NCBI GenBank assembly: GCA_012514535.1
Contig: JAAZAA010000375.1
Location: 1-32,859, forward strand
Reading direction: 5' to 3'
DNA: 32,859 bases
From: Myxococcales bacterium
Lineage (GTDB): Bacteria; Myxococcota_A; Polyangia; Polyangiales; Polyangiaceae
Below the pieces are notes generated by a model. The model was not told the origin of the DNA. It was given only the letters and a program-made list of their open reading frames with translations, and did no database searches. Both the position numbers and the translations under genes were made by a program. This document shows positions 21,898 to 32,859 of the stretch, in pieces (position 1 is the first letter of the stretch; each line of letters opens with the position of its first letter).

Positions 21898-22155
21898 ATG
21901 AGCAGTGAAATGGTCAATTACGACAGCGACCCGATCCTCCAGCTGGAAATCGAGGGGCTCGACTATCGGATCGACGCCGGAAAGCAGGGCACGGCTCTCT
22001 GTGTGTCCACGCGGCCCGCGGGGGCCTGGGACTGGGAGTACATCGCCGAGGCCCAGTGGGATGCGATGGGGCTGCGTTGCAAGGCCCTGGCCCGACCCCT
22101 CCGGGAGCACCTGACGCGCGCCCTGCGGACGGCCCTGGAGGAGGCGGAGAGCTGA
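21898..22155 (+). CDS. Small acidic protein of unknown function
   Basis: 85 residues, no signal peptide and no membrane helix. The sequence has a beta-strand-like start (ILQLEIEGLDYRIDAGKQ), a middle with TRPAGAWDWEYIAEAQWD and a helical C-terminus (LREHLTRALRTALEEAES). I do not recognise the family. Base use and residue balance look like a real gene: mixed composition, and an ATG right after a good -10 box. It is divergent from the Kazal lipoprotein gene and lies 248 bases before argD. Confidence 0.6.
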   Translation: MSSEMVNYDSDPILQLEIEGLDYRIDAGKQGTALCVSTRPAGAWDWEYIAEAQWDAMGLRCKALARPLREHLTRALRTALEEAES

Positions 22156-22403
22156 CGGTCATCGAGCCCCGCCCTTGCCCCGCCCTCGACCCCTGCCCTC
22201 GAGCCCTCGAGCCGCCTCCGCAACGCTTCCGTGGCGCCGGAGAGCGTCCTCGAGGGCGCCCCCGAGGCCCGCGCACCTCGGGACATTGCCAACGCGCAGC
22301 CCGCTCGGTACCCATTCGCCTTGCCCCAACGACGAGGAGCTCGGGCGGCGTGGCCTCCCTCGACGGGAAGCGCGCGGCCGAGCTCGTCACCGATCCGAAG
22401 AAC
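22156..22403. other. Gap before argD with a degenerate C-rich repeat
   Basis: About 22166-22216 is a run of CCGCCCT/CCTGCCCTCGAG-like units with an 11-12 base period, poorly conserved. An in-frame GTG at 22350 preceded by GAGGAG (22335-22340) could be an alternative argD start. No terminator is clear. Confidence 0.4.
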
Positions 22404-23603
22404 ATGTCCTCACTGCAAACACTCCTCGGCGCTGCACAGCAGCACCTCTATCCCAACTACCGTCAGCCTCCGCTCGTGATCGAACGTGGCGAGGGGGTCC
22501 GACTCTGGGACACGAGTGGCAAGCAGTACATCGATCTCTACGCGGGGATCGCCGTGAGCGCCCTCGGCCACGCTCACCCGGAGCTCGTGGAGGCGATCTC
22601 CCGACAAGCGGGCAAGGTCCTCCACCTCTCCAACTACTACTACAACGAGCCGAACATCCTGCTCGCGGAGAAGCTCTGCGGGCTGGCCCGCATGGACCGA
22701 GCGTTCTTCTGCAACTCGGGCACGGAGGCGATCGAGGCCGTGCTCAAGGTGGCGCGCCGTCATTTCTTCGCCCAGGGACAGACGGAGCGCTATCGCGTGA
22801 TCGCGTTCCACAACGCGTTCCATGGTCGAACCCTGGGCGCGCTGGCGGCTACCGGGCAGCCCAAGTACCGCGACGGCTTCGGCCCGCTCCCGGGGGTCAC
22901 CCACGTGCCCTACGGCGACGCGGAGGCGGTGCGCCGGGAGATGGGCCCGGACGTGGCGGCGATCCTGGTGGAACCGGTCCAGGGCGAAGGCGGCGTGACC
23001 CCCGCCCCGGCGGGCTTTCTGCAGGCCCTGCGCCAGATCGCCGACGAGCACGGCGCGCTGCTCCTCGCCGACGAGGTCCAGACGGGGGTCGGTCGGACGG
23101 GGACGTTCCTCGCCTGCGAGCAGGCGGGGGTGAAGCCGGACGCGGTCGCCCTGGCCAAGGCCTTGGGGGGCGGCATGCCCATCGGCGCGATGCTGTGCAA
23201 GGAGAAGCTCGCGGAGGCGCTCCCTCCCGGCGCCCACGGATCCACCTACGGGGGCAATCCCCTGGCCAGCGCCGCCGCGCTCGCCGTGCTCCAGGTCATC
23301 GAACGGGACGGTCTGATGGCCCACGCCACGCAGATGGGCGAGTACCTCGCCGGCCGCCTGCAGGAGCTCGTCGAGAAGCACGCGGTCGCCGAGTCCCAGC
23401 GAGGTCTGGGCCTGCTACGAGCCCTGGTGCTGCGGGACGACACCGACCCCCGGGCGCTGCTCGAGAGGCTGCGTGAGGAGGGTGTCCTGCTCACCGTGGC
23501 CGGGGGAACCGCGCTCCGGTTCACCCCTCCCCTCATCATTCAACGGAGCGACCTCGACGAAGCCCTCGGCGCCGTCGATCGCGTCCTGGGAGAGCTATCG
23601 TGA
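22404..23603 (+). CDS. argD: Acetylornithine aminotransferase
   Basis: 399 residues. ArgD makes N-acetylornithine from N-acetylglutamate semialdehyde with glutamate as amino donor (PLP enzyme, arginine biosynthesis). Class III aminotransferase marks: GEGVRLWDTSGKQYIDLYAG, NSGTEAIEAVLKVAR, HNAFHGRTLGALAATG, VEPVQGEGGV, LADEVQTGVGRTG and the PLP Lys K252 in ALAKALGGGMPIG. The final STYGGNPLASAAAL fits too. The next gene is argF, which supports ArgD over GabT or other relatives. The ATG at 22404 gives the family's usual N-terminus; an in-frame GTG at 22350 has the better ribosome site (GAGGAG, 9 bases) and would add 18 residues. The stop overlaps the argF start (GTGA). Confidence 0.92.
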   Translation: MSSLQTLLGAAQQHLYPNYRQPPLVIERGEGVRLWDTSGKQYIDLYAGIAVSALGHAHPELVEAISRQAGKVLHLSNYYYNEPNILLAEKLCGLARMDRAFFCNSGTEAIEAVLKVARRHFFAQGQTERYRVIAFHNAFHGRTLGALAATGQPKYRDGFGPLPGVTHVPYGDAEAVRREMGPDVAAILVEPVQGEGGVTPAPAGFLQALRQIADEHGALLLADEVQTGVGRTGTFLACEQAGVKPDAVALAKALGGGMPIGAMLCKEKLAEALPPGAHGSTYGGNPLASAAALAVLQVIERDGLMAHATQMGEYLAGRLQELVEKHAVAESQRGLGLLRALVLRDDTDPRALLERLREEGVLLTVAGGTALRFTPPLIIQRSDLDEALGAVDRVLGELS

Positions 23604-24514
23604 CTCGCCATTTCCTCAACCTCTCGGACCTGGGCCGAGACGGCCTCATCGCCACCCTCGACCGCGCAGATCGTCTGAAGGCGCAGCGCGGCACGACCAA
23701 CGAACGTCCCCTCGCGGGCAAGAGCGTCGCCCTCGTGTTCGAGAAGGCGAGCACGCGCACGCGCCTCTCCCTGGAGGTGGCGGTCGCCGAGCTCGGCGGT
23801 CACCCCATCGTCATCACGAGCCAGGGCTCGCAGCTCGGACGGGGTGAACCCTTGAAGGACACGGCCCGGGTGCTGACCCGGATGGTCCACGCCGTCACCC
23901 TGCGCACCTCCGACGAGTCGCGCATCCTCGAGGTGATGGAGTACTCGACGGTGCCGGTGCTCAACGCCCTCACGGATCAGAGTCATCCCATGCAGCTCCT
24001 GGCGGATTTGCAGACCGTGCGGGCCCATTTCGGCAAGCTCGAGGGGCTGACCTACGCCTGGATCGGAGATGGCAACAACATGGCCAGCTCCTGGATCGAG
24101 GCCGCGGGGCTCCTCGGGCTGCACCTGCGGCTGGCGTGCCCCGAAGGGTATGATCCCGACGAGCGCTTTTGGAACGAGGCGCGGGAGCGGGGCGCTCGCC
24201 TGGAGCTGGTGCGGAGCGCAGCGGAGGCGGCGCAGGGCGCCCACGTCGTGAGCACCGACGTCTTCACGAGCATGGGCCAGGAGGAGGAGAGCGCCACCCG
24301 CTTGCGGGCGTTCGAGGGCTTCCGAGTCGATCGGGCGCTGTTGCAGCGAGCCGCCAAGGACGCGGTGGTGCTGCACTGCCTGCCCGCTCACCGCGGCGAG
24401 GAGATCGAGGAGGAGGTCCTCGAGGGTCCGCAGAGCATCGTCTGGGATCAGGCCGAAGCGCGCCTGCACACCGCCAAGGCGGTGCTGCTCTGGGCGTTGG
24501 GCATGGATGGCTGA
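23600..24514 (+). CDS. argF: Ornithine carbamoyltransferase
   Basis: 304 residues. It condenses ornithine and carbamoyl phosphate to citrulline. Carbamoyl-phosphate-binding STRTR (51-55) and HPMQ (129-132) are intact, as are the ornithine-side SMG (224-226, in DVFTSMGQEE) and the HCLPAHRG loop (259-266) with its reactive Cys. Length and order are normal for anabolic OTC. The start is the GTG at 23600, overlapping the argD stop by 4 bases. The downstream P-type-ATPase-like gene starts inside the last codons of argF (8-base overlap), so all three are probably translated from one message. Confidence 0.95.
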   Translation: MTRHFLNLSDLGRDGLIATLDRADRLKAQRGTTNERPLAGKSVALVFEKASTRTRLSLEVAVAELGGHPIVITSQGSQLGRGEPLKDTARVLTRMVHAVTLRTSDESRILEVMEYSTVPVLNALTDQSHPMQLLADLQTVRAHFGKLEGLTYAWIGDGNNMASSWIEAAGLLGLHLRLACPEGYDPDERFWNEARERGARLELVRSAAEAAQGAHVVSTDVFTSMGQEEESATRLRAFEGFRVDRALLQRAAKDAVVLHCLPAHRGEEIEEEVLEGPQSIVWDQAEARLHTAKAVLLWALGMDG

Positions 24515-27098
24515 GATCGGGCCCGCCCCCCGGCACGTCGGCTGCGGCACCTGCGGCAAGCCTGTCGACGCGCTGCGGGCCCCGCGCGTGCGCTGCATCG
24601 ACTCGCGCCTGTGGTTCTTCTGCTCCGTCGAGCACGCCGAGTCCTTCGACGTGGACAGCGCCGCGGGGCAGCTCCTCTCGGAGCGCGGCTTCGAGGCGCC
24701 CAGGCGCACCTGGGGCCTGCCGGCTCCTCCCCAGCTCCCGGCGGTGGCGCCCCTCGACGGCGCGAGCGCGGGCCCGTTCGACGGCGTCGTCGGTGGTGCC
24801 GGTGACGCCGTCAGCGTCGGGCCTCCGACCATCCGCTCCCAGGAGCTCCCCGACGCTGACGAACTCGGATCCGTCCGCGGGGAGGAGCGCTCGCTGACCC
24901 CCGCGCTCGGAGAGGCCCTGGAACTCGGACCGCCGATCGCTCCCGCCACGCCGCCACCGGCGAACGTGGCCAGCTCCCCGCCCCCCTCCGTCCAGACGAG
25001 GCCCCCCTCCTCGGTTCGCTCCGTGGCTTCCGGAGGCCCGATCTCCGGAGGTCCGGCTTCGAGCGGCCCCGCCTCGGGGCGGAGCGCGCCCCCTACGGCC
25101 GCGTCCACCTGGGATCCTCCGCCGTCCCCATCCCACCCGCACTCGGCCGCGGCGCTCTCCGGAAACGTCCAGGCACCGGCGACCCTCCCCGCCGCCCTCA
25201 ACTCGCTCGGAGGCCGCGAGCCGGCCTCCCGCGGCCAGGAATCACAGGATCTGCTCCTGCTCGGCATCGCCGCGGTGAGCGGAGCCTTCAGCATCGCCCT
25301 CACCCTCGCGGGCCCCTCGGCAGCGGCGCAGACGGGCCGCCTCGCCGTCCTCGGCGCGGGGGCGGGCGTGCTCGTGGCCCAGGCGCTGCTGAGCCCTCGG
25401 GATCCCCGGCAGCTGGATCGCGTGTCGTTGCTCCTGAGCCCGGTACTCACCACCGTGATCGCCGCCACCGCGCACCTGGGGGGACACCCGGACGCTCCCT
25501 CGGCGCTGACGGTCGCTGGCGCCGTGATCATCGCCAGCGCGGTGATCACCGGCCTGGTGCAGCGCTTCACGCAGCCCGTCGACCGCGGGCGACGCTCCCT
25601 CGTCGACCGCCTGCACCTGCAGGCCCGTCGCCTCAGCGGCCACGTCACCGAGCACTGCTCCGCGGACGAGCTCCGCCCCGGCGAGGAGATCCTCGTGGAG
25701 GCCGGCGAGCTCGTCCCGGCGGACGGCACGGTCGTTGCGGGACACGCGCGCATCGTGCCCTGGCTGGGCGCCCACCGCTCGGAGCCCCGCGGCGAAGGGG
25801 AGCCGATCCCGGCGGGCGCCCTGATCGAAGAGGGGGCGCTCCGCATCGTGACGGGGTGGACCGGATCGGACCGCGCCTGGCTGCGGCTGACGGCAGATCC
25901 GACGCGCCGCGTCGATCTGCGTTCGTCCCCTGCGCGGACGGGGTACCTCGCGGCCCAGCGGGGCGGCGTGGCGGCGGCGGGCCTGGTGCTGCTCGCTGGC
26001 TTCGCCCTCGGAGGAGATGGCCTCTTCTTCGCCCTGGCGGCCGCGGCCGTCCACGGAGCATTCGCCCACGCGGGGCTGGCCGAGCTCGCGGCGGCTCGGA
26101 TGGCGCGAGCGACGCTGGAAGGGCTCGACCACGGGATCGCGTTCCACGCGGCGGAGCACCTGGACGAAGCGGGGCGCGCGACCGTGGCGGCCCTCTGCGC
26201 CCGAGGCACCGTGCTTCTGGGAGAGCCGGAGGTCGCGGGGCTGGAGCCGCTGGATCAGCTCTCCCCGGAGGAGCTCCTCGCGCTCGCTGCCGGAGCGGAG
26301 AGCGCGGTGCATCACCCCGTCGCCACCGCGGTGCTGCGAGCGGCCCGGGCCCGCAACGTCCGCCCCGACGCCACGCGCAACCACAACCCCATCGCTGGCC
26401 TCGGCGTCACCGCGGTGACCTCCTCGGGCAAGGGTCTCGTCGTCGGGAGCCGAGCGCTGATGCTCCGGGAAAAAATCAGCGTTGCCCGCGCCGAGAGCCG
26501 CATCACGGAGCTCGAATCCATGGGGCGCACCTCGCTGCTCGTGGCGGTGGATGGTCGCCTGGCGGGCATCCTGGCGCTCCAGGATGGGCTTCGGCCCGGC
26601 GCACGAGCGGCCGTCCAGCACCTCCTCGACCTGGGGGTGGAACCAGTCCTGCTGTCGGGGGATTCCCGGGAGACCACGGACGCCATCGCCCGCAGCATCG
26701 ACATCGAGCACGTGCGCCCGGAGCTCCCCGCAGCGCAACGCGGCGAAGAGATCCGTCAGCTCTCCGAGGGCGGCGCGGTCGTGGCGGTGATCGGCCGCAG
26801 CCCCGTGGACGACTCCGCGCTCTCGGCGGCGGACGTCTCGATCACCTTGCGTGCGGCTGCCGCCAGCAACGCCGATTGGAGCGTCGGCCTCGCCTCCGAC
26901 GACGTACGCGACGCCGCGCGGACTCTGCGCATCGCGCGACGGGCGCGCGATGGCGCGCGCGCGATACTCGCCTTGAACGTCGTTCCACCGACTTTGGCTA
27001 CCCTGGCCGTGGCGTTCGACCTCGTTTCTCCGGCCGTTGCGCCCTGCGCTGCGCTGCTCGGGACGCTCGCGGCGGCCTTTCGGGCCCGCGAAGACTGA
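24507..27098 (+). CDS. Catalytically dead P1B-type ATPase-like protein with N-terminal metal knuckle
   Basis: 863 residues. The N-terminus has a TRASH/YHS-like knuckle: C13xxC16, then C39 and H43 (WFFCSVEHAESF). A Pro/Ser/Gly linker (about 70-240) follows, then about four membrane helices (245-365), an actuator-like domain with ELVPADGTVVAG, two more helices (about 485-530), an N/P-like domain with GEPEV and HHPVATAVL, and probably two C-terminal helices. This is the order of a heavy-metal P1B ATPase, but the working residues are gone. TGE is GAH (421-423), the membrane CPC is absent, DKTGT is CARGT (C564 replaces the phosphorylated Asp), GDGxND is GRSPVDD (763-769), and GDN is GDS. It cannot pump by the known mechanism. 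Its start overlaps argF and a Fur-family gene follows after 34 bases, so sensing, scaffolding or metal binding are possible roles. All roles are inference. Confidence 0.8.
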   Translation: MAEIGPAPRHVGCGTCGKPVDALRAPRVRCIDSRLWFFCSVEHAESFDVDSAAGQLLSERGFEAPRRTWGLPAPPQLPAVAPLDGASAGPFDGVVGGAGDAVSVGPPTIRSQELPDADELGSVRGEERSLTPALGEALELGPPIAPATPPPANVASSPPPSVQTRPPSSVRSVASGGPISGGPASSGPASGRSAPPTAASTWDPPPSPSHPHSAAALSGNVQAPATLPAALNSLGGREPASRGQESQDLLLLGIAAVSGAFSIALTLAGPSAAAQTGRLAVLGAGAGVLVAQALLSPRDPRQLDRVSLLLSPVLTTVIAATAHLGGHPDAPSALTVAGAVIIASAVITGLVQRFTQPVDRGRRSLVDRLHLQARRLSGHVTEHCSADELRPGEEILVEAGELVPADGTVVAGHARIVPWLGAHRSEPRGEGEPIPAGALIEEGALRIVTGWTGSDRAWLRLTADPTRRVDLRSSPARTGYLAAQRGGVAAAGLVLLAGFALGGDGLFFALAAAAVHGAFAHAGLAELAAARMARATLEGLDHGIAFHAAEHLDEAGRATVAALCARGTVLLGEPEVAGLEPLDQLSPEELLALAAGAESAVHHPVATAVLRAARARNVRPDATRNHNPIAGLGVTAVTSSGKGLVVGSRALMLREKISVARAESRITELESMGRTSLLVAVDGRLAGILALQDGLRPGARAAVQHLLDLGVEPVLLSGDSRETTDAIARSIDIEHVRPELPAAQRGEEIRQLSEGGAVVAVIGRSPVDDSALSAADVSITLRAAAASNADWSVGLASDDVRDAARTLRIARRARDGARAILALNVVPPTLATLAVAFDLVSPAVAPCAALLGTLAAAFRARED
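25029..25073 (+). repeat. 15-base in-frame repeat in the linker of the ATPase-like protein
   Basis: TCCGGAGGCCCGATC (25029-25043), TCCGGAGGTCCGGCT (25044-25058) and the more diverged TCGAGCGGCCCCGCC (25059-25073). They encode a Ser-Gly-Gly-Pro linker of five-residue units. Confidence 0.6.
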
Positions 27099-27132: not shown

Positions 27133-27666
27133 GTGAGCAACGATCGGGAGGACGCCCACTTCGGCCAGCGTGCGCGAAGTCCAAACCTGGAGCGCCTGCG
27201 CCAGGCCCTCGATGACTACATGTCGGACCGGGGGCTGCGCACGACGGAGCAGCGGCGGCTGATCGTCGACACGCTCTTCGACACCACCGAGCACCTGACC
27301 ATCGACGAGCTGCTCGAGAAGGTGCGCGCCGTCGATCCCCGGATCGGGTACGCCACCGTCTATCGCACGATGAAGATGCTGGCCGAGGGAGGCATCGCGC
27401 ACGAGCTCAACTTCGGCGATGGGGTGACTCGCTACGAGCTCGCTGACGAGGACGCTCACCACGACCACCTCATCTGCCAGGAGTGCGGCCACATCACCGA
27501 GTTCGAGGAGCCCCTGATCGAGGAGCTCCAGGAACGGATCGCGGCGCGCTACCGGTTCGTGGTCACCCACCACAAGCACGAACTCTACGGGCATTGCCGC
27601 GAACCGGAGGACTGCGAGCATCGCAAGCGCGCAGCCGACTCGGGGCGTGTACGCCAAACCAGGTGA
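27133..27666 (+). CDS. Fur-family metal-dependent regulator
   Basis: 177 residues. The N-terminal winged helix has LRTTEQRRLIVDTLF and the recognition region GYATVYRTMKMLAEGGIA. The dimer/metal domain has HHDHLICQECG (H109-H112, C115, C118), HHKHELYG and a C-terminal C155/C161 pair; the two Cys pairs form the structural zinc site of Fur and PerR proteins. Whether it senses iron, zinc, manganese or peroxide cannot be read here. A charged 20-residue N-terminal extension precedes the family's usual start. The start is the GTG at 27133, 34 bases after the ATPase-like gene and on the same strand, so co-transcription is likely. It is convergent with the glycosyltransferase. Confidence 0.9.
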   Translation: MSNDREDAHFGQRARSPNLERLRQALDDYMSDRGLRTTEQRRLIVDTLFDTTEHLTIDELLEKVRAVDPRIGYATVYRTMKMLAEGGIAHELNFGDGVTRYELADEDAHHDHLICQECGHITEFEEPLIEELQERIAARYRFVVTHHKHELYGHCREPEDCEHRKRAADSGRVRQTR

Positions 27667-29555: not shown

Positions 29556-29619
29556 GCGCTCCAAGAATAATCCGCGCCAGCGCCCGCACAAATCGCCGAG
29601 AAGCTGCTAGACAAGACCG

Positions 29620-30276
29620 GTGGCCGACCCGGATTTCCAGCTGGATCCCGAGCACCTGGCAGCCCTCTCCCACCGCGCGAAACGTCAGATCCGCCAGCGG
29701 ATGCGGGCCACCCGTCAGGCCTACCCGTCGACCGCCGTCGCGGCGCGCAGCGCGAAGATCTGTGAACGGCTCCTCGCCCTCCCCATCCTCGCGGGAGCGA
29801 AGGCGGTCGCTTCCTTCGCGCCTTTGTTGGAGCGCCGTGAGGTCGATTTGAGACCCCTGGACGAGGCCCTGCGCCACCGGGGCGTCGCTCTCTATTATCC
29901 ATTCATGGACCCCACGCCGACCGGCTACCGTACGGGTTTCCGGAAGGTCGAACGGCCAGATGACCTCGTCCCCCGCCAGCAGCCCTTCGCGGAGCCGCCA
30001 CCGGACGCGCCGGAGGCCCGACGGGGCGACATCGACGTCGTCCTCGTCCCCGCCCTGGCGGTCGCGGCGGATGGTCACCGGGTCGGGTACGGCATGGGGT
30101 ACTACGACGCGACGCTCCCGGACGTGGTGCCCCCCGCGATCAGCGTCGTGGTCGCCTTCGATTTCCAGCTGCTGACGGAGCTCCCCCACGAGGCTCACGA
30201 TCGCGCCTGCGACTGGGTGGTGACGGACGCGCGGGAGATCGACGTGCGCGGTGGTGTCCCCTCCGATCGGCGCTGA
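29620..30276 (+). CDS. 5-formyltetrahydrofolate cyclo-ligase
   Basis: 218 residues. It converts 5-formyltetrahydrofolate to 5,10-methenyltetrahydrofolate with ATP (folate repair/recycling). It shows an Arg-rich helical N-terminus RRAKRQIRQRMRATR-like (residues about 18-33), a central LYYPFMDP and the signature DGHRVGYGMGYYDATL (151-166), the ATP/folate loop of the family. In E. coli the homologue ygfA follows 6S RNA; here only 64 bases separate it from the divergent lactonase gene, too few for 6S. The start is the GTG at 29620 with no clear ribosome site. Confidence 0.9.
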   Translation: MADPDFQLDPEHLAALSHRAKRQIRQRMRATRQAYPSTAVAARSAKICERLLALPILAGAKAVASFAPLLERREVDLRPLDEALRHRGVALYYPFMDPTPTGYRTGFRKVERPDDLVPRQQPFAEPPPDAPEARRGDIDVVLVPALAVAADGHRVGYGMGYYDATLPDVVPPAISVVVAFDFQLLTELPHEAHDRACDWVVTDAREIDVRGGVPSDRR

Positions 30277-30656: not shown

Positions 30657-31571
30657 ATGGTACGCACGGTCCTGATCGTCGACGACTCCGAGTCCGTGCG
30701 TCACTCCGTCGAGCGCGTGCTGCGGGACCACCAGGTCGCCGATGTCTTCCTCACGGCGCGCGATGGCCGGGAAGCCTGTGCCCTGCTCACCCGGCACACC
30801 GTCACTCTCGTGTTCTGCGACCCCGCGGCGGCAGGGTTCGACGAGTTCGAGCTTCTGCGCCTGAAGGGCGGACAGACGAAGCTCGAGGGCGTGCCCGTGA
30901 TCCTGCTCGCGACCGAGGAGGACACCCGCGCCACCTTGCGTGCCCTCCGTGCGGGAGCCGACGATTACCTCACCAAGCCCTTTCACGACGAAGAGCTCGT
31001 CGCCCGCGCTCGCGTGCACCTGCGCCTGAGGGAGCTCCAGGACGAGCTGCGCGACAAGAGCACGCTCCTCGAGACCCTGAACCGCACGGACGGGTTGACG
31101 GGGCTCCTGAATCGTCGCTCCCTCGTGGAGGTCCTCGGCGCCGAGTTCGCGAAGTGCACGCGCTATCGCGCCCCGCTGAGCCTGGTGATGGTCGACCTCG
31201 ACCGCTTCAAGAAGGTGAACGACACCTTCGGGCACCCCGTCGGAGACGCGGTCTTGAAGACCGTCGCCCGGGTGATCCGCGCGGAGCTACGGGCCTGCGA
31301 CGCGGCGGCCCGGTTCGGAGGCGAGGAGTTCGCGCTCCTGCTCCCTCAGACGGATCGGGCGGGAGCGATCGTGGCCGCGGAACGCTGTCGCACGGCCCTC
31401 GAGGCGGCGCGGGTCCCTACGAGCGCCAGCGCGGTGAGCGTCACCGCGAGCTTCGGCGTGGCGACCTGGCCCCATCCCCAGGTGGCGCGCCTCGACGATC
31501 TGGTGAGCCAGGCCGATCAGGCCCTGTATCGCGCCAAGAGCGAGGGTCGCAATCGCGTCGTCGCCCTGTGA
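30657..31571 (+). CDS. Response regulator with GGDEF domain (diguanylate cyclase)
   Basis: 304 residues. The N-terminal receiver domain (1-125) has VLIVDDSESVR, D55 as the likely phospho-acceptor, T/S86-region LLATEEDT and K107 in YLTKPF. The usual Met-Pro after the Asp is replaced by Ala-Ala. A short coiled coil (about 122-142) leads to a GGDEF domain (143-304) with DGLTGLLNRRSL, the active-site GGEEF (221-225) and DQALYRAKSEGRNR. The inhibitory I-site RxxD is intact at R212-D215. It should make cyclic di-GMP when its receiver is phosphorylated (PleD/WspR type). No histidine kinase is adjacent. It is convergent with the protease gene, 14 bases apart. Confidence 0.93.
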   Translation: MVRTVLIVDDSESVRHSVERVLRDHQVADVFLTARDGREACALLTRHTVTLVFCDPAAAGFDEFELLRLKGGQTKLEGVPVILLATEEDTRATLRALRAGADDYLTKPFHDEELVARARVHLRLRELQDELRDKSTLLETLNRTDGLTGLLNRRSLVEVLGAEFAKCTRYRAPLSLVMVDLDRFKKVNDTFGHPVGDAVLKTVARVIRAELRACDAAARFGGEEFALLLPQTDRAGAIVAAERCRTALEAARVPTSASAVSVTASFGVATWPHPQVARLDDLVSQADQALYRAKSEGRNRVVAL

Positions 31572-31585
31572 CGTGGTTCGTGGGG

Positions 31586-32752
31586 TCACCTGGGAGAGGC
31601 GCGATCCAGGCCGAACCAAGCTCCGATGCAGCCGAGCGCGAACCCCACGGGCGCCACGCTGGCCGCGACCACGAGCGCCATGGGCTCGGTGATGCTGAAC
31701 ATGCCGAGGGTGACCAGGATGGCCGCGCCCGTGGACCAGGCGGGCTCGATCACGCTGCGTGCCCCGCTCGCGCGCGCGACCAGGTACCCTGATACGGGGA
31801 ACGCCGCCAGCAGGGCGGAGCCGAGCAAGGCGAGGGGCACGCTGGCGACCAGCTCCGACTCGTCCACCTGAGCGAAGTCCACCCCGTAGCGGTGCCCGAT
31901 CCACACCGCGGCGGCGAGGAAGGCGAGGGTGACCCCGAGGGTCACGAGAGCCCCCACGAGGATCCAATGCACCATCAGCGGCTGCCCCGTGCCGCGCATG
32001 GCTTCGCGCACGGTGCGGACCGAAGGCGGCTCGAACACCCCGCCAGGAACGGAGCCCGGCGCGCTCGGCTCATGACGCAGCATCATCCATGTCCCCACGA
32101 CCATGAGCAGGAGCACCGGGACGACGACCACGAGCAGCGCCGGCCCGCGCCCGAAGACCACGTGATCGTACCCGCCGTGGATCAGGGCCACGCCGAGCCA
32201 CAACCTCGGCAGGGATCCCTGGCGCCCCCGCCCCAACGCGTAACCCCACAGAGATGCGAAGAACAGGTGCGCCGGCAGCGCGATGGTCGAGCGCAGCACG
32301 TCGAGCCAGTCTCGCAAGCCCGCCACGAAGTACGCCGACAACACCTCGCAGGCAGCGAAGCCGCTGGCTGCGGCGACCGCGTGCAGCACACCGACGCGAC
32401 CGCTCGTGAGCCGGCGCCGCAAGAACGACGGCCACACGACCGCGATCTTCAACGCCTCTTCGAGGGGGCCGACCACCAGCAGCATGATCAACGCCGCGCC
32501 GACGGGGCTCGCCAGAGAGCCCCGCAGCGGCACGCCGGTCCAGGCCACCAGGCGCGCCTCGAGCACCGCGGCGACCACCGCCGCCAGCCCCCCGAACCCG
32601 CAGGTGAGCAGGACGACGCGCCCGGAGACGTGGCGCGTCTCGGCGATCCGCCGAAACAACCACCAGGTCAGCAGCAACGGGATCGCGGCGCTCGAACAGG
32701 CGATGGTGGCGCGCAACCAATCCACGGCGCCCGGTCCTTGTATCACCAGCAC
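31586..32752 (-). CDS. PrsW-family intramembrane protease
   Basis: 388 residues, about ten membrane helices. PrsW proteases cleave membrane-bound anti-sigma factors in Bacillus; relatives belong to the CAAX-protease-like clan. The active-site features are all present: GPLEEALK (E98, E99, K102), GFAACEV (E136), LPAHLFFASLWGYALG (H162) and LIHGGYDHVVF (H192, D196). About 160 further residues with four helices follow, joined by a soluble Pro-rich loop (about 230-250), an extension beyond the PrsW core. The start is a GTG at 32752; the ATG at 32754 is in another frame and stops at once. No sigma or anti-sigma gene is in the window. Confidence 0.85.
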   Translation of the reverse strand: MLVIQGPGAVDWLRATIACSSAAIPLLLTWWLFRRIAETRHVSGRVVLLTCGFGGLAAVVAAVLEARLVAWTGVPLRGSLASPVGAALIMLLVVGPLEEALKIAVVWPSFLRRRLTSGRVGVLHAVAAASGFAACEVLSAYFVAGLRDWLDVLRSTIALPAHLFFASLWGYALGRGRQGSLPRLWLGVALIHGGYDHVVFGRGPALLVVVVPVLLLMVVGTWMMLRHEPSAPGSVPGGVFEPPSVRTVREAMRGTGQPLMVHWILVGALVTLGVTLAFLAAAVWIGHRYGVDFAQVDESELVASVPLALLGSALLAAFPVSGYLVARASGARSVIEPAWSTGAAILVTLGMFSITEPMALVVAASVAPVGFALGCIGAWFGLDRASPR

Positions 32753-32859
32753 ATGCCGCTCAGACCCGGGCTAGGGTCCCACGGCACGCAGTTTCGGGAG
32801 AGGGTCGCCGTGAGGTCCTTGGGGTCTGATCCCCGGTTCTGAGATAGGCGCCCTCGACC
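32753..32859. other. Right-edge segment, nothing identified
   Basis: No open frame of use. GGGG (32821-32824) can pair with CCCC (32831-32834), a weak hairpin. This may be upstream DNA of a gene beyond the window. Confidence 0.3.

Follow-up and report, generated by a model that had tools for sequence, protein, structure and literature searches.

An open reading frame in the 32,859-nucleotide stretch of myxococcal DNA analysed here (the window) encodes a protein with the fold of a P1B metal pump which, to judge from its sequence and those of some 38 distinct orthologues from nine or more families of one Myxococcota order, is almost certainly dead as a pump. Taken as a whole, the evidence is best explained by a non-pumping membrane pseudoenzyme that responds to a ligand and serves as a scaffold or regulator, perhaps in arginine synthesis, and to this reading we give a probability of roughly 0.6. 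The protein, hereafter the pseudo-pump, is classed as a pseudoenzyme of a transporter family and not as a P1B ATPase, being P1B by fold and descent only.

Architecture and catalytic motifs

The pseudo-pump frame runs from an ATG start to a TGA stop with zero internal stops, so that the intact frame of 863 codons reported in the first-pass annotation is borne out (Table 1). Long antisense reading frames lie opposite, but the plus-strand coding frame is nonetheless secure, as the orthologues align in that frame and their differences fall mostly at the third codon position (93/69/251 at positions 1/2/3 between L012 and L009). The Pfam models E1-E2_ATPase and Hydrolase both match above cut-off, at 34.5 and 49.5 bits respectively, and residues 386-817 match CopA in a phmmer search of PDB sequences (E 1e-31). 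The NCBIfam heavy-metal P-type model TIGR01525 gives 179 bits against a cut-off of 346, and the broad TIGR01494 is the only one of these two P-type models that the protein passes, so automatic annotation would probably label such proteins P-type ATPases. The window's genome has seven further strong E1-E2 ATPase matches.

Table 1. Features of the pseudo-pump and its neighbours in the window.
Feature	Position	Strand	Basis
argD, acetylornithine transaminase, conserved neighbour	22056..23603	+	profile matches, synteny
argF, ornithine carbamoyltransferase; stop overlaps pseudo-pump start by 8 bases	23600..24514	+	profile matches, synteny
Pseudo-P1B-ATPase ORF, 863 aa	24507..27098	+	Pfam, PDB sequence search, about 38 distinct orthologues
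N-terminal knuckle, residues 13-43 (C13, C16, C39, H43), TRASH/YHS-like	24543..24635	+	conservation, HHalign, pLDDT about 80-90
Predicted disordered linker, residues 61-229	24687..25193	+	pLDDT under 50; dN/dS near 0.65-1.0 in close pairs
TM helices 1-4, residues 241-369	25227..25613	+	model, hydropathy
A-like domain, residues 370-455; TGE replaced around W419-H423	25614..25871	+	alignment, model
TM helices 5-6, residues 474-541; holds CPC position	25926..26129	+	alignment, model
P/N head, residues 546-812, most constrained part	26142..26942	+	dN/dS 0.07-0.13 in close pairs; CopA P/N match
C564-A-R566-G-T replacing D-K-T-G-T	26196..26210	+	39-sequence orthologue alignment
G763-R764-S-P-V-D768-D replacing GDGxND	26793..26813	+	39-sequence orthologue alignment
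TM helices 7-8, residues 819-861	26961..27089	+	hydropathy, model
Fur-family regulator, neighbour in part of clade	27133..27666	+	profile match, synteny

An AlphaFold2 (AF2) model built from a 17-sequence alignment (mean pLDDT 77.7, most of the body above 85-90) has eight transmembrane (TM) helices with A-like, P and N domains, the full P1B set. Its closest structure is AfCopA (7r0g; Z 26.6 and rmsd 7.3 over 612 residues by Foldseek and VIA-align, for a predicted model), and its P and N domains match those of CopA with Z 23.7. Modelling, which the first-pass annotation had proposed as a check, thus indicates that the P1B fold is retained. The A-like domain has been lost in frame in two orthologues, L016 (5944-8154) and L042 (625-2613), in which the P/N head is kept, indicating that an E1/E2-type cycle is not under selection.

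The first-pass annotation had read every catalytic motif as lost, naming GAH for TGE, CARGT for DKTGT, GRSPVDD for GDGxND and a missing CPC. All of these substitutions are present on inspection, but the wider statement goes slightly too far, as the N-domain GxG, Glu598, the motif II Ser-Gly and D768 are kept. In the window copy TGE is replaced by W419-L-G-A-H and the CPC position reads H521-A522-G523; neither TGE nor CPC was found in any orthologue alignment inspected. Among the 38 orthologues covering the site, position 564 is never Asp (C in 26, S in 6, N and V in 2 each, A and F in 1 each), and position 566, the Thr of DKTGT, is R (32) or H (6). The first Asp of GDGxND, position 764, is likewise absent in 38/38 (R18, H14, Y2, and one each of K, T, N and S), while the second, position 768, is D in 37 and E in one. 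The motif-III Lys has become Arg in 37 of the 39 aligned orthologues and Gln in the other 2. As the losses are identical in every orthologue covering the sites, they are not due to chance. On these alignments the requirements of a P-type cycle, namely the phosphorylatable Asp, the TGE, the first Mg-binding Asp and the transmembrane CPC, are absent.

The N domain keeps its GxG (G631, G633) in 39/39 and Glu598 in 32/39, its HP is present in the window copy and variable among relatives, and the motif II Ser-Gly lies at residues 717-718. Alongside the losses, R/H566, R624, E670, D708, H735, R/K737, R745 and E748 are fixed in pseudo-pumps and rare in intact pumps, and the new fixed residues at or around former catalytic sites are R/H566, R624, R649, E670, R721 and R745. 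At the former Mg/phosphate site two acids are gone and conserved bases have appeared at 566, 745 and mostly 764, with R721 beside motif II. By homology to the HAD fold, in which motifs I to IV ring one site, the conserved Arg and His residues would face a single basic pocket. Such fixed residues indicate that a new state is conserved, beyond the mere absence of decay.

Orthologues, descent and selection

A search of genome contigs recovered 16 relatives, together with a distant pump of the ordinary kind, and a family search added ten further distinct orthologues, with a match in 14/16 genomes. An order-wide profile search then placed the pseudo-pump in 14/18 genomes and at least nine families, overturning an apparent restriction to one family; the survey covers a sample of genomes and is no full census. 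Of the four order genomes without it, three are small (3.1-3.3 Mb), with hits whose scores resemble those of intact pumps, and the fourth is 85% complete. The profile scored only at intact-pump level in the 17 genomes searched from other orders of the class, and all eight loci read from outside-order genomes carry DKTGT. One orthologue, L091, lies in a seemingly closed genome (G045:C1, one contig of 10,327,335 bases). The alignment holds 39 orthologues, two of them identical in the aligned core.

Orthologues with intact motifs, which the first-pass annotation had named as the finding that would count against it, were sought in the order and class samples and none was found; indeed, all orthologues that cover the sites share the same losses. 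In the phylogenetic tree a 100/100 branch separates every pseudo-pump from 19 intact pumps, which for the most part come from the same genomes; the sampled pumps and orthologues include no intact intermediate. A single clade with this support makes the motif loss look ancestral to the sampled families. Judging by the tree, the pseudo-pump arose before these families of the order split and has been retained since. Its ancestor was probably a P1B metal pump with a YHS domain. A CcoI/FixI-type pump as ancestor, linked by a PF12156-like N-terminus, was considered and rejected, as PF12156 is found in 0/17 members and the N-terminal knuckle matches local YHS domains instead.

Whole-protein dN/dS (NG86) is 0.13-0.29 in the closest pairs (dS about 0.4-0.6), well below 1 as the first-pass annotation had proposed for a gene under purifying selection, and since high-GC codon bias compresses dS the true values are probably lower. 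By domain, the cytosolic P/N head has the lowest values across the three closest full-length pairs, followed by the A-like domain and TM5-8 segments (about 0.16-0.32) and TM1-4 (0.27-0.60), with the linker highest. A pseudogene or frameshift is ruled out by the intact frames, the shared losses and these ratios. The earlier view that this is not simple decay therefore stands, on the shared losses, the low dN/dS and the fold kept in the model, and a selected role other than transport is very likely from the sequences.

The N-terminal knuckle and the gene neighbourhood

The C-C-C-H knuckle described in the first-pass annotation is real: C13, C16 and C39 are invariant across 36 sequences, and most orthologues have Cys as the fourth ligand, position 43 being C in 34 and H in two, among them the window copy. 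These 36 sequences show the conserved C-C-C-C (or D-C-C-C) metal-ligand pattern of TRASH/YHS domains. HHalign relates the knuckle to YHS domains of working pumps from the same family at 95%, and the Pfam TRASH model PF24273 matches 7/17 members weakly (best E 0.012). Its CxxC...C..C spacing resembles that of the TRASH/YHS domains of ribosomal L24e, which binds Cd via four Cys, and of the Mycobacterium phlei adenylyl cyclase, the mycobacterial cyclase YHS domain being a copper sensor (PMC4626032); unlike in these, the knuckle is fused to a dead pump. The first ligand is Cys as in L24e, whereas the YHS domains of local pumps have Asp. From this pattern the knuckle is likely to bind metal.

The YHS-bearing P1B copper pumps of the same family (L044, L046, L047, L055) and CopA (7r0g, 4bbj) share with the pseudo-pump the domain order, eight TM helices, A/P/N fold, N-domain GxG and N-terminal knuckle. 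The pseudo-pump differs from them in having no DKTGT Asp, TGE, CPC or GDGxND, in its motif-III Arg, in its first knuckle ligand and in its separate clade.

The gene contexts in arginine biosynthesis are new in this analysis. In the window's clade argD or argF lies directly upstream on the same strand at 21 of the 23 loci with readable upstream sequence, the exceptions (L005, L007) having an rlmI-like gene there instead. In the sister clade argH adjoins the pseudo-pump at 8/10 loci, immediately downstream in the same orientation at seven of them and divergently at L093, with lysA usually next; neither gene adjoins it at L084 or L091. That two different arg genes are neighbours suggests a functional tie, although one ancestral arg cluster, later split, may give the same contexts without functional meaning. 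Searching the literature for an arginine link turned up nothing.

A Fur-family gene, the only strong Fur match of its genome, begins 34 bases past the window's pseudo-pump, and Fur is directly downstream also at L004, L006, L017, L019, L058, L059 and L062. Neither the Labilithrix-type clade nor the sister clade has Fur beside the pseudo-pump, and Fur as a constant partner was rejected, its adjacency being confined to part of one clade. In the Labilithrix-type clade a large Ser/Thr kinase takes its place (L013:8611-11583, L012:8067-11093 and L014:7874-12853); the L012 and L013 kinases carry HEAT repeats and the L014 kinase DUF4388.

Other neighbours recur. The block upstream of argD is conserved and comprises a HAD-like hydrolase (weak Pfam Hydrolase_3 match) and an RlmI-like methyltransferase (L011:2935-3918, L013:2872-4506, L017:2855-3697). 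A gene for a YkuD L,D-transpeptidase recurs in the sister clade beside or near the pseudo-pump, upstream at L091, L092, L094 and L095, downstream at L084 and facing it at L093, a possible envelope connection. Downstream in the window are genes for a 5-formyltetrahydrofolate cyclo-ligase (29611-30273, plus strand), a response regulator with GGDEF (30657-31571, plus strand) and a PrsW-family intramembrane protease (31589-32770, minus strand).

Possible functions and significance

Our preferred reading is of a regulator or scaffold, which would probably act through the P/N head, the part under strongest selection. The TM bundle would anchor this head to the membrane, while the former ATP/phosphate site, with its presumed lining of conserved Arg and His, may bind an anionic ligand, whether nucleotide, phosphate or metabolite, and leave it unhydrolysed. 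The four-ligand knuckle would hold a transition metal in a structural or a sensing role, and the head could dock or modulate a cytosolic partner, for which the best candidates are the arginine-biosynthesis enzymes encoded alongside. The first-pass annotation had proposed a metal sensor, chaperone or membrane scaffold; the neighbouring genes speak for arginine biosynthesis more than for metal handling, but a functional link to arginine synthesis is put forward only tentatively. A fuller version, which we regard as doubtful, is that a whole pump was turned once, before the families split, into a membrane allosteric protein of arginine biosynthesis that takes up an anionic intermediate or a nucleotide in its basic pocket and controls or anchors ArgD, ArgF or ArgH through its knuckle and P/N head.

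Among the alternatives, a metal sensor coupled to Fur would have the knuckle sense Fe, Zn or Cu, with the adjacent Fur either receiving a signal from the membrane protein or being sequestered by it. The three invariant Cys with a fourth Cys/His ligand, the copper-sensing precedent of the mycobacterial cyclase (PMC4626032) and the eight loci with Fur directly downstream, in the window next to the only strong Fur of the genome, all fit such a sensor, but it is the P/N head and not the knuckle that selection constrains most, and with Fur adjacent in neither the Labilithrix-type nor the sister clade we consider it improbable. A transporter kept active by some unconventional chemistry, or a TM bundle that lets metal pass passively, could account for the retention of eight TM helices and the entire P1B architecture; it is very hard to reconcile with the absent CPC, TM segments less conserved than the head and the lack of a phosphorylatable residue at the Asp position.

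A working HAD-type enzyme with Cys564 as nucleophile is, if anything, less credible still: Cys is indeed commonest at the Asp position (26/38), but other members have S, N, V, A or F there, and a base replaces the first Mg-binding Asp in most members, and Cys564 as a replacement nucleophile was rejected because position 564 is not conserved. The most remote of the four is a decaying gene or assembly error, to which the lost motifs might point, as might L042, which is from the window's own genus, is the most divergent orthologue, may be eroding and is also without the A domain; at the level of the whole family this reading is refuted by intact frames in about 38 genomes, the shared losses, the low dN/dS and the newly fixed residues.

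No characterised bacterial P-type ATPase is known to us that stands alone, is catalytically dead and is nevertheless conserved throughout an order, and no bacterial pseudo-P-type ATPase is described in the open-access literature searched. Degenerate P-type-like proteins have been described in eukaryotes. The Plasmodium guanylate cyclase beta has a P-type ATPase domain in which most signature residues are not identifiable, differing from the pseudo-pump in that this degenerate domain is P4-ATPase-like and fused to a cyclase (PMC6592433). TMEM94, whose status is disputed, is also a P-type-like membrane protein, reported without TGES or a phosphorylation cycle, but it has ten TM helices, is not P1B and keeps the Asp at the proposed site, D417 (PMC12134183). 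The pseudo-pump is a natural experiment in the uses of a pump scaffold without phosphorylation, and the arginine link, if true, would reveal an unexpected membrane layer of control over a textbook pathway.
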